This document shows positions 3,204 to 32,893 of a stretch of 36,213 nt of DNA, one piece after another. The notes beneath the pieces are model-generated. The model did no database searches. It had not been told where the DNA came from and was given only the letters and a program-made list of their open reading frames with translations. Position numbers and translations under genes: made by a program. This DNA is from Erysipelotrichaceae bacterium (GTDB taxonomy: Bacteria > Bacillota_I > Bacilli_A > Erysipelotrichales > Erysipelotrichaceae), in contig JAUNCS010000009.1 of NCBI GenBank assembly GCA_030526485.1, forward strand, positions 2,466 through 38,678, written 5' to 3'. Positions within the stretch are counted from its first letter, which is position 1, and the number at the start of each line of letters is the position of its first letter.

Positions 3204-4163
3204 ATGAAAATGAAAAAATTATTAGTTGTCTTATTAAGCTTATTAATGCTTACAAATCTATGTGCTTGTGGATCTAAAACTGAAGATACAAACAATACTG
3301 GTACTGATGATGAACCAGCCTGGGTATATGAGGGTGTTGGTTATGACAAATTAATGGAAACTATGGGTAAGAGTGAAATCGACTTATCAAATGCTGATGG
3401 TACTTTAGCTAAAGTTCTTGAAAAAGGTGAACTTGTAATGGCAACCAGTCCTGACTATCCACCTGCTGAATTCGTTGATGCGCTAACTGGCGAAGTAAAG
3501 GGTTCTGATATCCTTCTAGGTCAATATATCGCTAATAGCTTAGGCGTAACTCTAAAGGTTGAATCAATGGATTTTGGTGCCGTATTAACATCTCTTGATA
3601 CTGGTAAATCTGATATCGCTATTTCTGGTTTCGGTTATAAAGAAGACAGAGCTGAAGTATATGAACTATCTATTGGCTACCAGGCTAAATCAAGCGCTGC
3701 TCATCACACAATTCTTGTAAGAGCTGAAGACGTTGATAAATATAACTCACTTGCTGATTTTGCTGGTAAGACTATTGATGCGCAAGCTAACTCTTTACAG
3801 CAGATGTATGTTGAAGATCAGTTAACTGAATCTAATCTGCAGTTAGTATCTACACTTGATATCGCACTTCTTGAACTAAGTTCTAAGAAGGTTGATGCGG
3901 TAGCTCTTGATTCTACTACAGCTAAAAACCACGCTGAAAATTCAAATGGCATGTTTGTAAGTCTATATTCTGAAAAGGGTATTGAATTTGACTTATCTCA
4001 ATATAAAGATGTAGCTGGTAACGTTGTTGCCTGCAAGAAGGGTGAAACTTCTTTAATCAATGCAGTAAATGAAATCATCACTGACATCATGGAAAAGGGC
4101 ACATATGCTGATATGTACTACGCTGCTTGTGATGCTGCTGGTGTTGTTCCAAGTGAAGAATAA
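3204..4163 (+). CDS. Amino-acid ABC transporter substrate-binding lipoprotein
   Basis: A 319-residue extracellular binding protein. The signal peptide ends in lipobox LCAC, so Cys22 or so is lipidated and anchors it outside the membrane. An extra segment of about 50 residues (to ADGTLAKVLEKG) precedes the SBP_bac_3 fold, which opens with the family motif LVMATSPDYPPAEF and includes DFGAVLTSLDTGKSDIAISG. This places it in the polar amino-acid (PAAT) family; exact substrate cannot be read from sequence. It is the first gene after T-box 1, with AAAGGGGAG as ribosome binding site; ATG 3210 is an alternative start two codons later. Permease and ATPase follow at 17 bases and by overlap. Confidence 0.9.
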   Translation: MKMKKLLVVLLSLLMLTNLCACGSKTEDTNNTGTDDEPAWVYEGVGYDKLMETMGKSEIDLSNADGTLAKVLEKGELVMATSPDYPPAEFVDALTGEVKGSDILLGQYIANSLGVTLKVESMDFGAVLTSLDTGKSDIAISGFGYKEDRAEVYELSIGYQAKSSAAHHTILVRAEDVDKYNSLADFAGKTIDAQANSLQQMYVEDQLTESNLQLVSTLDIALLELSSKKVDAVALDSTTAKNHAENSNGMFVSLYSEKGIEFDLSQYKDVAGNVVACKKGETSLINAVNEIITDIMEKGTYADMYYAACDAAGVVPSEE

Positions 4164-4180
4164 TAGATCGGAGTAATTAA

Positions 4181-4849
4181 ATGGGTGTAGGTGTTATCGA
4201 AGTCTGGATAAAATACTACCCAATCTTCCTCAAAGGTGCACTCGGCACGCTGGAAATCGCAGCGATCGCCGTCTGCATGGGGTCGATTCTGGGTACCTTA
4301 GTAGCTATCCTGCAGTTATCTAAAAATAAAATTATTAACGCAATTGCTGTTGTCTATGTAAATGTTCTAAGAGGTACGCCCTTACTTGTACAAATGTACA
4401 TTGCCTACTTCTTTATTCCAATGGCTGTCCCAGCTTTAGATTTCTTAAGCAAGGAACAGACTGTTATGCTGGCATTGATACTAAACTCAAGCTCATATGT
4501 AGCCGAAATCATCAGAGGTGGTATCAATTCAGTAGATAAGGGACAGACTGAAGCAGCCAGATCACTTGGTATGAGTTCTAAAAATACGATGTTTAGAATC
4601 ATCCTGCCACAGGCCATCAAAAACATTCTGCCATCTCTTGGTAATGAATATATTGCGATGATCAAGGAAACATCTCTGGCAGGTACATTTATGATGTATG
4701 AGCTGATGTATACAAAAACACTGCTGGCTAATCAGTACTTAATTTGGCAGCCATTATTTGTAATCGCTGGCATGTATCTGATTATGACCTCGGTATTATC
4801 GTTTTTAGTAAATGCGTTAGAAAAGGAGTTTGCGAAGAGTGAAAAGTAA
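4181..4849 (+). CDS. Amino-acid ABC transporter permease (HisM/GlnP family)
   Basis: A 222-residue inner-membrane permease with about five hydrophobic helices. The N-terminal amphipathic helix and [16 protein letters not shown] are typical of PAAT permeases. The EAA loop that docks on the ATPase is visible as [20 protein letters not shown] (residues about 126-145). Probably works as a homodimer, since only one permease gene is present. It lies 17 bases after the binding-protein gene and its end overlaps the ATPase gene. Substrate is unknown, presumed the amino acid sensed by T-box 1. Confidence 0.92.
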
Positions 4850-5588
4850 TGATGTATTGATTGAAGTAAAAGATTTGCATAAGTCTTTTGGCAAACTTCA
4901 CGTATTAAAAGGCTGTAATGAAGTAATTCATAAAGGCGAAGTAGTAAGTATTATCGGACCCTCAGGTGGTGGTAAGTCAACATTTCTAAGATGCCTAAAT
5001 CTTTTGGAGCAGCCAGAAGAAGGCTCAGTTATCTTTGAAGGTGTTGATATCACCAAGCTAAAAAAGAATTCCGACTTAGATAAACACAGACAAAAAATTG
5101 GTATGGTCTTCCAGCACTTCAATGTGTTTCCACATTTAACAGTACTGGACAATATCACTATTGCCCCAATTCTTGAAAAGGGCGTTAAAAAAGATCTAGC
5201 TGTTAAAAAAGCTATGGAACTATTGGAAATGGTTGGTCTACAAGATAAGGCTAATGTCTATCCAAACAAGCTCTCTGGTGGTCAGAAACAGCGTCTGGCA
5301 ATTGTTCGTGCCATGGCTATGGAACCGGATGTCATGCTCTTTGATGAACCAACATCAGCCTTAGACCCAGAAATGGTAAAAGAAGTACTGGACGTTATCA
5401 AATCACTGGTAGATGGCGGCATGACTTGTGTTATCGTAACCCACGAAATGGGCTTCGCTAAGCAGGTGAGCGATAGAGTATTATTTATCGCTGATGGCAA
5501 CATCGTTGAATCTGGTACACCAGAACAGGTATTTGAAAATCCAAAGAATGAACGTACAAAAGAATTCTTAAGTAAGGTTCTGTATTAA
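4839..5588 (+). CDS. Amino-acid ABC transporter ATP-binding protein (GlnQ family)
   Basis: About 249 residues with all ATPase motifs: Walker [11 protein letters not shown]-loop VFQHFN, signature LSGGQKQR, Walker B VMLFDEPT, and the switch His in VTHEMGFA. I place the start at GTG 4839: the ribosome binding site AAAAGGAG (4821-4828) leaves a 10-base spacer to it, whereas the in-frame TTG at 4830 is only one base away. The gene therefore overlaps the permease by 11 bases, suggesting coupled translation. It energises the importer encoded by the two genes before it. Confidence 0.92.
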
Positions 5589-8790: not shown

Positions 8791-9027
8791 TCATAGCATT
8801 TCTACATACCATTTGCCTCTATCGTAATAGAGATGTTTAATCTGATCATTTTTGAATAGACAGGTATATCTTAAACCGGTTCCTCCAACTGTTAGAGAAG
8901 CCCCGGGGCAGATGTCTTTGACCTTTAAGATAGGTACTCTTCTGTTATTGTCCCAGATAAGAAAAAGAGGTTTAACATTGCCATACTGGTCGTTTAGACA
9001 TATCACATCAACAAATCTTTTCTTCAT
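8791..9027 (-). CDS. Small conserved-looking protein divergent from LexA-like repressor
   Basis: A 78-residue protein rich in beta-forming residues, with core motifs FVDVICLNDQYG, FLIWDN and GGTGLRYTC. It resembles, from memory only, short conserved Firmicute proteins found beside SOS-type regulators or Y-family polymerase genes; no function is known to me. The start at 9027 is preceded by TATAAT (minus strand, 9039-9034) only six bases away, so the transcript is probably leaderless. A perfect palindrome at 9040-9056 overlaps its promoter spacer, so the adjacent repressor probably controls it. It converges on the ATPase gene and shares its terminator. Confidence 0.7.
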   Translation of the reverse strand: MKKRFVDVICLNDQYGNVKPLFLIWDNNRRVPILKVKDICPGASLTVGGTGLRYTCLFKNDQIKHLYYDRGKWYVEML

Positions 9028-9039
9028 ACCTTCATTATA

Positions 9040-9056
9040 CTTGATTTGTAATCAAG
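9040..9056. promoter_or_regulatory. Operator 1 (perfect palindrome)
   Basis: CTTGATT-TGT-AATCAAG, seven-base perfect arms. It lies just upstream of the minus-strand -10 box, inside that promoter's spacer. A -35 candidate for the minus-strand gene (TTGCAC, 9061-9056) partly overlaps its edge. Confidence 0.75.
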
Positions 9057-9067
9057 TGCAATAAAAA

Positions 9068-9084
9068 CTTGATTATTATTCAAA
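9068..9084. promoter_or_regulatory. Operator 2 (imperfect palindrome)
   Basis: CTTGATT-ATT-ATTCAAA repeats the left arm of operator 1 exactly and its right arm in five of seven positions. It covers the -35 box (TTGATT, 9069-9074) of the repressor gene. Centres of the two operators are 28 bp apart. Confidence 0.65.
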
Positions 9085-9097
9085 TGAGGCATACACT
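9069..9097 (+). promoter_or_regulatory. Promoter of the LexA-like repressor gene
   Basis: TTGATT (9069-9074), 17-base spacer, TACACT (9092-9097). The ATG at 9104 is six bases beyond the -10, so transcription would begin at or next to the start codon. Confidence 0.75.
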
Positions 9098-9103
9098 AAA
9101 AGT

Positions 9104-9694
9104 ATGAAATTCAAGGAGAACTTACGCTTCCTTAGACGAAGCAACCACATGTCTCAAAATGAGCTTGCTGACCTATTGGGTTACAAGTCATTCACTACAG
9201 TTCAGAAGTGGGAAGATGGTACAACATTTCCGGTAGTTGAGAATCTAAACCGTTTAGCGCAGATTTTCAATGTGGACCTGGATCATCTCTTAAATGTTGA
9301 TCTGACTAATGACAATGTCGAGGTTCCAATCCTTGGTGAAGTAAAGGCTGGTTATAACCTTTATGTAAACCAGGAAATCATGGGTTATGAATATATGAGT
9401 AACCATGAGTATAAGCCAGGCGAATACTTTTACTTAAAGGTAAAGGGTGATTCAATGGTGGATGAGAGAATCTGTGAGGGCGATATTGTTTATGTCAGAA
9501 AGCAGGACTACATCAATGATAATGAAATTGGTGTCTTCCTTTTGGACAATAATGAGGTAACAATTAAGCGTTTCAGAGTAATGAAGAATGGTCCTGTACT
9601 AAGAGCAGGAAATAAGAACTATGCCGATGTAAAACTGAAAGAAGGCGAATATAAGGTGCTGGGTAAGGTCTTACACAGCAAGATAATGTTTTAA
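9104..9694 (+). CDS. XRE-HTH / S24 self-cleaving repressor (LexA/CI-like)
   Basis: A 196-residue repressor: XRE-type helix-turn-helix at residues about 1-65 (LRRSNHMSQNELADLLGY), linker, then an S24 LexA-like autoprotease domain. The cleavage site is Ala82-Gly83 (GEVKAGYN); the catalytic dyad is Ser117 (GDSMVD) and Lys155 (VTIKRF). Spacings of 35 and 38 residues are almost those of E. coli LexA (84/85, 119, 156), so the protein should cleave itself when RecA filaments form. Its DNA-binding domain is CI-type, not the LexA winged helix. It probably binds the two palindromes upstream, repressing itself and the divergent small gene. There is no Shine-Dalgarno sequence; a leaderless start is likely. 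Confidence 0.9.
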   Translation: MKFKENLRFLRRSNHMSQNELADLLGYKSFTTVQKWEDGTTFPVVENLNRLAQIFNVDLDHLLNVDLTNDNVEVPILGEVKAGYNLYVNQEIMGYEYMSNHEYKPGEYFYLKVKGDSMVDERICEGDIVYVRKQDYINDNEIGVFLLDNNEVTIKRFRVMKNGPVLRAGNKNYADVKLKEGEYKVLGKVLHSKIMF

Positions 9695-9954
9695 TGAAGG
9701 CACAGTATCGTTTCCTTTATATCATTACTTCAATGGTCGTCTATGTCTTGATAGGCTTAATAGAATTCTTTTGTCTGAATGACTTGCTGGATATTATTTC
9801 CACAAGATATTTCTTCCATGTCTTAATGGCTTTAGGATGTCTATTTATAATTAATCCCTTATTAAGTTATGCGATCGTTGATAAACTGCCAATTAAACCT
9901 AATCTGAAACTGAAGGGTGGAATCAAAGAAGATTTGAAGACTGTAAAAGAATAG
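9694..9954 (+). CDS. Small membrane protein coupled to the repressor gene
   Basis: An 86-residue protein with two or three hydrophobic segments (residues about 5-27, 35-65) and a basic, Lys-rich tail. No family recognised. Its ATG shares a base with the repressor stop codon (TAATG), so it is translationally coupled and must be co-expressed with the repressor. It may report or act on the membrane when the repressor is inactivated, but that is only a guess from position. A terminator overlaps its stop codon. Confidence 0.65.
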   Translation: MKAQYRFLYIITSMVVYVLIGLIEFFCLNDLLDIISTRYFFHVLMALGCLFIINPLLSYAIVDKLPIKPNLKLKGGIKEDLKTVKE

Positions 9955-15352: not shown

Positions 15353-16162
15353 ATGAAAAAGATTATTACTTTATTATTAGCTGTCTTAATGTGCATGTCA
15401 CTTGCAGCTTGTGGTTCTAAGGAATCAAACAACACTAATTCAAACGACAACAATACAGTTGCTAATCCATTAGACGCTGCATTAATTTCTGAAGGTACTA
15501 TCATTATCGGTACTTCTCCAGACTATCCACCATTTGAAACTTTATCAGCTGCTGGTGAACTAGAAGGTTTCGATATCGATATGGTAAACGCTGTTGTTTC
15601 ATTATTAAATGAACAGAACGGTACAAACTACACTGTAACTTTCAAGCAGATGGATTTCTCAACTATCATCTCAGCTTTACAGGCTAGCCAGATTGACGTA
15701 GGTGTTTCAGGCTTCACATACAGCCCAGATAGAGACTGCATCTTCTCAACTCCTTACATTGGTTCTAACCAGGTTGTAGTAACTAGAGTTGACACAGGCA
15801 TTACAACAAGCGAAGACTTAGTTGGTAAGAAGGTTGCTGCTGGTACTGGTACTACTGGTGCTGAAGCTTTAGCTGAAATCATTGGTGAAGGCAATGTTCA
15901 GCATCCTGGTGATTACACAGTTATGTTCCAGGCTTTAGCTGCTGGTCAGTTAGACGCTGTAGTATGTGATGAAGCTGTAGGTGTTAACTATGTTAACGAA
16001 ATGAACCTTGTTATGTTAGCTGAACCACTAGTAGACGAACAGATGTCAATTGTTATCAAGACTGGTAATGACACTTTAGCTGCTGCTGTTAACGCTGCTG
16101 TTGAAGCATTTGTTGCTAGCGAAGACTACAACACTTTATTAGCTAAGTGGGAATTAAACTAA
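15353..16162 (+). CDS. Amino-acid ABC transporter substrate-binding lipoprotein
   Basis: A 269-residue SBP_bac_3 protein with signal peptide and lipobox LAAC, so Cys20 is lipidated. After a low-complexity Asn/Ser linker, the fold starts TIIIGTSPDYPPFETL and shows MDFSTIISALQASQIDVGVSG and the second-lobe VAAGTGTTGAEAL. The length is normal for the family, without the extra N-terminal segment seen in the paralogue at 3204. Codon use is very even and T-rich, as in highly expressed genes here (pfp, adhE). Permease and ATPase follow. The substrate is likely polar or basic; the T-box 2 specifier reading of Arg is compatible but unproven. Confidence 0.92.
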   Translation: MKKIITLLLAVLMCMSLAACGSKESNNTNSNDNNTVANPLDAALISEGTIIIGTSPDYPPFETLSAAGELEGFDIDMVNAVVSLLNEQNGTNYTVTFKQMDFSTIISALQASQIDVGVSGFTYSPDRDCIFSTPYIGSNQVVVTRVDTGITTSEDLVGKKVAAGTGTTGAEALAEIIGEGNVQHPGDYTVMFQALAAGQLDAVVCDEAVGVNYVNEMNLVMLAEPLVDEQMSIVIKTGNDTLAAAVNAAVEAFVASEDYNTLLAKWELN

Positions 16163-16180
16163 TAAGAGGAACTAAATAAA

Positions 16181-16864
16181 ATGTGGGCAACTATTGTTAA
16201 AATATTTACCCCAGATAACATTAAATTCATGCTACAAGGGGTGAAAATTTCGCTTCTTGTAGCTGTTCTTTGCACGATATTTGGTACCCTGCTGGGTATC
16301 ATGATTGCCAGCTGCAAGATTTCTCGTTCTAAGTTCCTTAATGTTATTGGCAATATTTATGTTGAACTGATCAGAGGAACACCAATGTTACTTCAGCTGA
16401 CATTCTTCTATCTTGGTATTCCAATGATTTATCAGATGATTACTGGTAAATATATGTCTGTCAGTGCAATTATGATGGGTATTATCGCTATCTCTATTAA
16501 CTCGGGTGCTTATAGCTGTGAATTAATCAGAGGTGCTATTAATTCAATTGACAGAGGCCAATGGGAAGCTGGTAAGGCTATTGGACTTAATCATACACAG
16601 ATTATGCGTAAGATTATTCTTCCACAGTCTTTCAAACGTATCATTCCTTCATTAGCCAATGAATTTATTACACTTATTAAAGACTCAAGTTTAGTATCGA
16701 CTATTGGTGTAGTTGACTTAATGAAGACTTCTACAATTCTTGGTGCTAAATACTATAACTACTTCTTCCCAATGATTGGGGCTGCTGTGATTTATCTGAT
16801 TCTGACATTAATTACTTCACAGTTTACAACTAGAATAGAAAGGAAACTGGCAGAAAGTGATTAA
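16181..16864 (+). CDS. Amino-acid ABC transporter permease
   Basis: A 227-residue PAAT-family permease with about five helices. The EAA loop reads [20 protein letters not shown] and is followed by [15 protein letters not shown], the standard ATPase-docking region. It lies 18 bases after the binding-protein gene, with AAGAGGA as ribosome binding site, and overlaps the ATPase start by eight bases. Being the only permease gene, it probably forms a homodimer. Confidence 0.92.
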
Positions 16865-17585
16865 GGTAGAAAACTTATATAAGAACTTTGGCAAGGTACA
16901 GGCTCTTGATGGCGTTAGCTTAAGCATTAATGCCGGTGAAGTTGTTTGTCTTATTGGACCTTCAGGTTCTGGTAAATCAACATTATTGAGATCTATTAAT
17001 GGTCTGGAAATTCCTGATGCTGGTGAAATCTATGTCGATGACTTAAAGATTGATCCAAACAATGAGGAAATGATGTGCAAGGTAAGATCAGGCATGGGCT
17101 TTGTCTTCCAGCACTTCAATTTATTTCCACATCTTACAGTATTAGATAACATTACTCTTTCTCCAATTATGGTGCAGGGTGTTGATAAGGCAACAGCTGA
17201 AAAAGAAGCTATGGAATTACTGAAAATGGTAGGCCTGGAAGAAAAGGCTAACGAATTCCCTAATAAGCTTTCAGGTGGTCAGAAACAGAGAGTGGCAATT
17301 GCCCGTGCTCTGGCTTTAAAACCTGAATATATGCTGTTTGATGAACCTACTTCCGCTCTTGACCCAGAAATGGTTAAGGAAGTATTAAATGTTATTAAAT
17401 CTTTAGCTGATAAGGGTATGACAATGGCTATCGTAACTCATGAAATGGGTTTTGCGAAAAATGTTGCTGACCGTATCGTCTTCTTTGAAGAAGGCAAGAT
17501 TGTTGAAGAAGCAAGTCCAAAAGACTTCTTTGAAAACCCTAAGTCAGATAGAGCTAAAGACTTCTTAAGCAAAGTAATGTATTAA
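16857..17585 (+). CDS. Amino-acid ABC transporter ATP-binding protein
   Basis: A 242-residue ATPase starting at GTG 16857. Motifs: Walker [11 protein letters not shown]-loop [13 protein letters not shown], signature LSGGQKQR, Walker [14 protein letters not shown], switch His in VTHEMGFAK. It is closely similar to the ATPase at 4839, including the C-terminal FLSKVMY against FLSKVLY, so the two operons arose by duplication or share a recent common source. It completes the importer encoded just upstream. Confidence 0.93.
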
Positions 17586-32308: not shown

Positions 32309-32893
32309 ATGAAAAACCTTTTTAAAGAATTCAAAGAATTTGCCGTAAGAGGAAATGTTCTTGATATGGCAATTGGTGTAGTTATTGGTTCTGCATTCAC
32401 TGCAATCGTTAACTCACTTGTAAATGACATTGTTACACCTGTTCTTGCTTGCTTAACAAGCAATGTAAATTATGAAAGTGCTGCTTTACCTTTAAAGGGT
32501 GAAATCGTACTAAGCTATGGTAAGTTTATTCAGGCTGTATTAAACTTCATCTTAATCGCCTTTGTAATCTTCCTTGTTGTAAAAGCTATTAATGCAACTA
32601 AGAAGAAAGAAGAAGCTCCAGCTCCTGAAGAACCAAAGGAAAGCGAAGAACTTAAGACTCTTAAGAATATTGAAGCTTTACTAGCCGGCAAGAAGGAAAC
32701 TCCTGTTAAGGAAGAAAAGGTTGCTCTAGTTAAGGAAGAAGCTAAGGTAGCTGTTGAAGCTAAAAAGGCTCCTGCTAAGAAGGCTCCAGCAAAGAAAGCT
32801 CCTGCTAAGAAGGCTAGTAAGCCTGCTGCTAAAAAGGCTCCAGCTAAGAAGCCAGCAGCTAAGAAAGCACCTGCTAAAAAAGAAGCTAAATAG
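32309..32893 (+). CDS. mscL: Large-conductance mechanosensitive channel MscL with basic repeat tail
   Basis: The first ~95 residues are a normal MscL: amphipathic MKNLFKEFKEFAVRGNVLD, first helix AIGVVIGSAFTAIVNSLVND with the pore-lining Gly/Ala pattern, periplasmic loop, and second helix FIQAVLNFILIAFVIFLVVK. A charged linker and the cytoplasmic bundle helix LKTLKNIEALL follow. Unusually, residues about 150-194 are a low-complexity tail built of KKAPA and PAAKK units: the last 43 residues contain 18 Lys and one Glu. Family members are normally about 130-150 residues. The channel opens under membrane tension to release solutes in osmotic downshock; the tail resembles histone-H1-like DNA-binding tails and would face the cytoplasm. 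Confidence 0.93.
   Translation: MKNLFKEFKEFAVRGNVLDMAIGVVIGSAFTAIVNSLVNDIVTPVLACLTSNVNYESAALPLKGEIVLSYGKFIQAVLNFILIAFVIFLVVKAINATKKKEEAPAPEEPKESEELKTLKNIEALLAGKKETPVKEEKVALVKEEAKVAVEAKKAPAKKAPAKKAPAKKASKPAAKKAPAKKPAAKKAPAKKEAK
32763..32890 (+). repeat. Low-complexity coding repeat (Ala-Lys-Pro tail)
   Basis: Short units around GCTCCTGCTAAGAAG repeat through the mscL 3' end. Codon variation between units shows selection or age at the protein level instead of a fresh DNA expansion. Confidence 0.7.

Follow-up and report, generated by a model that had tools for sequence, protein, structure and literature searches.

The S24 repressors, among them LexA, CI and HdiR, cleave themselves at an Ala-Gly bond upon RecA filament formation (PMC8565304). 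In hosts that lack LexA, this role has been assigned to HdiR in Streptococcaceae and to a non-canonical LexA in Bacteroidetes, both of which act as SOS repressors (PMC8565304). HdiR binds operators with the consensus tttATCAGtTtttCTGATaaa (PMC1592510) and is stated to control cinA-recA in S. thermophilus (PMC8565304); an earlier study reported no HdiR site before recA in that species (PMC1592510). The Bacteroidetes protein carries a CI-like helix-turn-helix (HTH) and an S24 domain in place of LexA (PMC8565304). The literature that we examined contained no SOS description for the gut lineage considered here, and LexA, SOS and recA are not discussed in the literature on its class. Here we describe a locus of this lineage whose best reading is a new lineage and variant of the same known kind of system.

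The window, that is, the whole stretch of DNA analyzed, comprises 36,213 nt of Erysipelotrichaceae bacterium GCA_030526485.1 (contig JAUNCS010000009.1, positions 2,466 to 38,678 of the forward strand). Its genome, G000 in our genome set, is a 1.95 Mb assembly. Those of its relatives that bear a name are metagenome-assembled genomes of Erysipelotrichaceae and Solobacterium, ruminant guts being the source of many. Elsewhere in the window, 917-2162 contains small open reading frames whose N-termini resemble those of type IV pilins; they probably form a competence pseudopilin operon and precede an elongation factor P-like gene. Two amino-acid ABC transporter operons that resemble each other, each with binding protein, permease and ATPase, lie 10 kb apart (3204-5588 and 15353-17585), and 32309-32893 encodes what appears to be an MscL-like channel protein with a long lysine/alanine/proline-rich C-terminal tail of AKKAPAKK repeats, unusual for the family. 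At the locus itself, the three open reading frames of a preliminary description of this DNA were recovered with unchanged boundaries, and phage genes are, as it had claimed, absent nearby, the neighbors being a DUF4143 ATPase, a MATE transporter and murG. The features are as follows.

8791 to 9027, minus strand: 78-aa polymerase-companion protein, predicted all-beta; its gene lies downstream of a Y-family polymerase in most relatives.
9025 to 9027, minus strand: deletion junction, a start codon common to the lost polymerase and the 78-aa gene, from comparison with four polymerase-bearing relatives.
9034 to 9039, minus strand: leftward -10 element TATAAT, 6 nt before the ATG, read from the sequence and conserved in relatives.
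9039 to 9057, no strand: predicted operator 1, ACTTGATTTGTAATCAAGT, filling the -35/-10 spacer of the leftward promoter.
9056 to 9061, minus strand: leftward -35-like element TTGCAC, read from the sequence.
9067 to 9085, no strand: predicted operator 2, ACTTGATTATTATTCAAAT, over the -35 element of the rightward promoter.
9069 to 9074, plus strand: rightward -35-like element TTGATT, read from the sequence.
9092 to 9097, plus strand: rightward -10-like element TACACT, 6 nt before the repressor ATG, read from the sequence.
9104 to 9694, plus strand: XRE-S24 self-cleaving repressor of 196 aa (Pfam HTH_3 and Peptidase_S24; A82-G83 scissile bond, S117, K155).
9694 to 9954, plus strand: 86-aa membrane protein with about two TM segments by hydropathy, its gene overlapping the end of the repressor gene.

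The 196-aa protein matches Peptidase_S24 at 1e-23 (Pfam) and combines the S24 domain, the Ala-Gly bond and the Ser-Lys dyad by which self-cleaving S24 repressors are recognized. The XRE HTH and the A82-G83/S117/K155 protease set proposed in the preliminary description are thus borne out, since both domains were found and the residues are kept in orthologues: across 38 rows of repressor orthologues Gly83, Ser117 and Lys155 are invariant, and residue 82 is Ala in 32. Orthologues with 60-74% identity occur in 30 of the 35 other genus genomes (31/36 with G000), and across the genus they keep one genomic place, upstream of murG; such genus-wide counts include near relatives that are non-independent of one another. 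The closest solved relative is T. maritima LexA (3k2z, E 5.5e-16), over the S24 half only. The protein falls short of canonical LexA, scoring 88 bits against the TIGR00498 cut-off of 110.95, and no LexA winged helix was found at its N-terminus, which carries HTH_3 instead.

Between the divergent genes, the palindromes previously noted at 9040 and 9068 are both real, but the motif in relatives is CTTGA-N7-TCAAG and not, as first written, CTTGATT-N3-AATCAAG, which 9040-9056 matches perfectly and 9068-9084 with two mismatches. Under an operator model trained on 52 sites, the window's two palindromes among them, they score 21.6 and 19.9 bits, the two highest values in the window, where the third-best hit reaches 6.9, and genome-wide in G000 (1.95 Mb) only two other places, one of them a tRNA gene, match ACTTGA-N7-TCAAGT with at most one mismatch; the palindromes thus exceed chance. 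The latter consensus was derived from the aligned genus promoters. All 29 genus divergent promoters compared contain operators, in two copies in 23, spaced 28-30 bp apart, and in one copy in the remaining six; lack of such conservation had been named as grounds for abandoning the switch, and the conservation found favors a real one. The promoter elements were read by eye, and a consensus promoter scan listed neither promoter. TATAAT and its spacing to the polymerase ATG (see below) are kept in relatives. The leaderless look ascribed to both flanking genes holds here, with 6 nt between TATAAT and the leftward ATG and 6 nt between TACACT and the rightward one; before the repressor, many relatives instead carry a short leader with a ribosome-site-like stretch.

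In most relatives the leftward promoter faces a different gene. There the order is small gene, polymerase, divergent promoter, repressor, membrane protein, murG, with a 414-aa Y-family polymerase between the repressor and the 78-aa gene. Of the three-gene order noted in the preliminary description, the repressor/membrane protein pair beside murG is conserved, but in most relatives the polymerase intervenes before the 78-aa gene. IMS and IMS_C domains were found in this polymerase, and DNA polymerase IV models match it best, with scores short of their cut-offs. In other members of the family and in two plasmid records from Clostridia, genes for relatives of the 78-aa protein likewise lie either immediately after a Y-family polymerase gene or one gene further along. 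The ancestral leftward transcript encoded a Y-family DNA polymerase together with the 78-aa protein, and the output of the switch, earlier called unknown, is accordingly not wholly so. In an Oscillospiraceae phage (PV036438.1, 44489-49271; L238), a gene for a relative of the 78-aa protein lies close to those for a DNA polymerase and a transcriptional repressor, and phages may therefore be vehicles for the cassette.

This polymerase has been lost in G000, where the sole Y-family gene found encodes a different, 491-aa protein with a weakly YolD-like neighbor (L130:1997-3876, G000:C24, on the same contig as recA). The junction reads TATAAT-GAAGGT-ATGAAGAAAAGATTTGTTGATGTG in the window, and in the relative G014 TATAAT-TAAAGT-ATGAAAAAG before the polymerase and ATGAAAAGAAAATATGTCGATGTG at the small gene. 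On these sequences, the simplest account would be a deletion from start codon to start codon, by which the 78-aa gene would have taken over the polymerase promoter and its leaderless start; it is now first in the leftward transcript. In a repressor+MurG tree, G000 groups with the polymerase-bearing G014, G001 and G002 (100% support). G024, G027 and G031 cluster as a further group without the polymerase; parsimony on this tree, several deep nodes of which are weak, gives five changes among three states. In other polymerase-less genomes a leader precedes the small gene and the exact fusion of G000 is absent. The clade of G005, G010 and G017 has lost both polymerase and small gene; repressor, membrane protein and a single operator remain.

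The operator recurs upstream of recA. An unguided exact-motif scan of the 36 genus genomes returned matches at this locus, just upstream of pgsA-recA in six genomes, and at one additional site, in G025, that precedes a second Y-family polymerase gene. When a weight matrix was trained on the divergent-promoter locus alone and then applied upstream of pgsA-recA, it scored 11-26 bits within 100 bp in 29 of 32 genus genomes (shuffle control: median -6 bits, 99th percentile 7.7 bits); 178 kb of cassette-bearing contigs contain only two sites of at least 11 bits outside the divergent promoters. An operator upstream of recA, a mark of the non-canonical LexA, is thus present in those 29 genomes, with a weak site in G000, which scores 11.1 bits, departs from the motif at two of the 12 fixed bases and is displaced to -18 (per-region p ~0.01). 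An RNase P RNA gene lies upstream of pgsA-recA in G000 and G001. In other genera of the order, where pgsA-recA is arranged differently, no recA operator was seen, nor was the motif seen by eye in order-level repressor-polymerase promoters, a comparison in which several regions were off target.

LexA exceeds its curated cut-off in one of the 61 genomes searched, and not in G000. The exception, G004, is among the three genomes without a pgsA-recA site: it has a true LexA but neither a repressor orthologue nor a recA operator, and this suggests either that LexA has taken the repressor's place or that the assembly is mixed or misplaced (LexA at L098, G004:C61:3442-4035; 6% contamination). The second, G023, is 69% complete and its repressor was not found; the third, G025, has the repressor. 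The recA site is retained in three of the five genomes where the repressor was not found, in assemblies 70-80% complete, and the association between repressor and recA site is loose (Fisher p = 0.056).

A broad regulon in G000 was considered and rejected, as near-consensus matches do not exceed a reversed-pattern control; the scan with CTTGATT-N3-AATCAAG that had been advised for defining the regulon returned two one-mismatch matches, in a ribosomal-protein cluster and in a tRNA gene. Further members in six genus genomes were likewise dismissed, with no excess over the reversed control beyond this locus and pgsA-recA, and the extra sites examined there are scattered, mostly within unrelated genes. 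Without such an excess elsewhere, the regulon looks minimal. Operator-like sites also occur just upstream of TnpB-like transposon genes in G002 (L124:1501-1517), G019 (L126:1470-1486) and G006 (L253:1501-1519), and the repressor may therefore also control a few insertion elements. The picture of a switch confined to local genes probably does not hold for the genus, given the pgsA-recA operators, but agrees with the weak recA site of G000 itself. Since the predicted regulon takes in pgsA-recA besides this locus, the output can for the most part be read as an SOS response.

Taken with the intact catalytic residues, recA and a translesion polymerase as targets make it most likely that the repressor runs a minimal SOS response, and we are largely confident that it is an HdiR-like LexA substitute controlling itself with the membrane protein, the polymerase cassette and recA. 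We infer operator binding, repression, RecA-dependent cleavage and induction by DNA damage. As a plausible mechanism, the repressor, presumably as a dimer, would bind CTTGA-N7-TCAAG operators, two of which would shut the back-to-back promoters of the translesion-polymerase cassette on the left and of the repressor and its coupled membrane protein on the right, while another would act before pgsA-recA. Upon DNA damage, RecA filaments would promote self-cleavage at Ala82-Gly83 and thereby release the promoters. In G000, induction would increase the levels of RecA and PgsA as well as those of the 78-aa protein, the repressor and the membrane protein, with no polymerase from this locus. The preliminary reading as a domesticated CI-type switch, probably a damage-responsive one, is well supported, judging from the orthologous locus at the same place in the genus, its conserved operators and the same operator before recA.

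The weak recA site of G000, and near-consensus sites elsewhere in its genome that do not exceed the reversed-pattern control, would also suit a self-contained local switch, a domesticated phage immunity region acting on its own two transcripts only, with recA outside it in G000. We regard this as quite unlikely, since most of the genus has a strong and conserved operator at recA and G000 keeps an above-background site there. The locus does recall lambda-type CI immunity regions in its CI-type repressor, paired operators and divergent promoters; phage repressors are 30-35% identical to the protein, whose N-terminal half resembles phrog_4, and the polymerase-companion pair also occurs on Clostridia plasmids and phages. 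A prophage or mobile-element remnant in place of a host regulator is nevertheless very improbable: the repressor has a fixed place beside murG and an orthologue in 31/36 genomes, the window is without phage genes, operators stand at recA, and the ancestral divergent gene encodes a DNA polymerase where lambda-type regions have cro.

Two further alternatives were considered. The leftward transcript of G000 may be decaying, with the 78-aa gene a relic and the switch now devoted for the most part to recA and the membrane protein; the tree shows recurrent loss of the polymerase, and the G005/G010/G017 clade has kept repressor and membrane protein without polymerase and small gene. However, the G000 small protein is intact and 75% identical to that of G014, against 74% for the repressors, and the small gene is also intact in the polymerase-less G024, G027, G031, G016 and G008, so that we find decay somewhat unlikely. 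Alternatively, recA could be a target and not the trigger, the repressor responding to, for example, a different stress or a partner; the coupled membrane protein, with which it is nearly always paired, might be such a partner, acting as a sensor or modulator. A precedent is IrvR of S. mutans, a LexA-like protein reported to be under RecA-independent control (PMC7101444). A non-RecA signal is distinctly improbable in view of the full Ala-Gly/Ser/Lys set, which RecA-responsive S24 repressors also have, and of recA and a translesion polymerase as targets.

The two small proteins are potential effectors of the proposed SOS response. The claimed coupling of the membrane gene to the repressor is confirmed by a TAATG/TGATG overlap that is conserved in relatives, where a hydrophobic open reading frame of 67-95 aa follows nearly every repressor orthologue, and it is retained even where polymerase and small gene are gone. 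The 86-aa protein has no family match. In other Gram-positives SosA and YneA, small single-TM membrane proteins encoded beside lexA, are SOS division inhibitors (PMC6851548). The 86-aa protein is likened to them by position, as a conserved small membrane protein adjoining an SOS repressor gene, but it has about two TM segments in place of one, no LysM, and lies in the same operon and not divergently. This position makes it a candidate SOS effector and a candidate for a division-inhibitor role. The 78-aa protein also lacks a family match, has no HTH and no phage family match, and is not cro-like; its fold is confidently predicted to be all-beta (pLDDT 90.7), with no fold relative found in the PDB (best E 1.2). 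Like YolD-type companions it is small and, in most relatives, encoded directly after a Y-family polymerase, but it has no match to PF08863 (YolD) at E up to 1, and the weakly YolD-like gene of G000 stands separately, beside the other polymerase. A tentative joint proposal, and one we think unlikely, is that the 86-aa protein represents a novel type of brake, induced in the SOS response and acting on cell division or wall synthesis, and that the 78-aa beta protein is a polymerase-independent damage-response effector kept after repeated polymerase loss.

Compared with the described systems, the locus resembles HdiR of Lactococcus and Streptococcus as published: both have an XRE N-terminus with an S24 autocleavage domain in a LexA-less host, and operators at the repressor itself and at a umuC-type (here Y-family) polymerase. 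They differ in the operator (tttATCAGtTtttCTGATaaa against CTTGA-N7-TCAAG) and in the recA arrangement (cinA-recA against pgsA-recA), and the present lineage adds the coupled membrane protein, the fixed place beside murG and repeated polymerase loss. The Bacteroidetes repressor has a similar architecture but belongs to another phylum, with operators GGA-N5-TCC and CTAA-N5-TTAG and a broad regulon in contrast to the minimal-looking one here. Canonical LexA shares the S24 half and targets that include recA and translesion polymerase, but has a winged helix where this repressor has HTH_3.

Our data point to an SOS circuit in a LexA-less gut lineage. In G000 the polymerase appears to have been lost by a start-to-start deletion, with the switch retained and its promoter passed to the companion gene. 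The analysis gives a concrete predicted operator and names the uncharacterized 78-aa and 86-aa proteins as damage-response candidates. After Streptococcaceae HdiR and the Bacteroidetes repressor, it would add one more independent example of a phage-type S24 repressor whose reach extends past an error-prone polymerase to recA itself.
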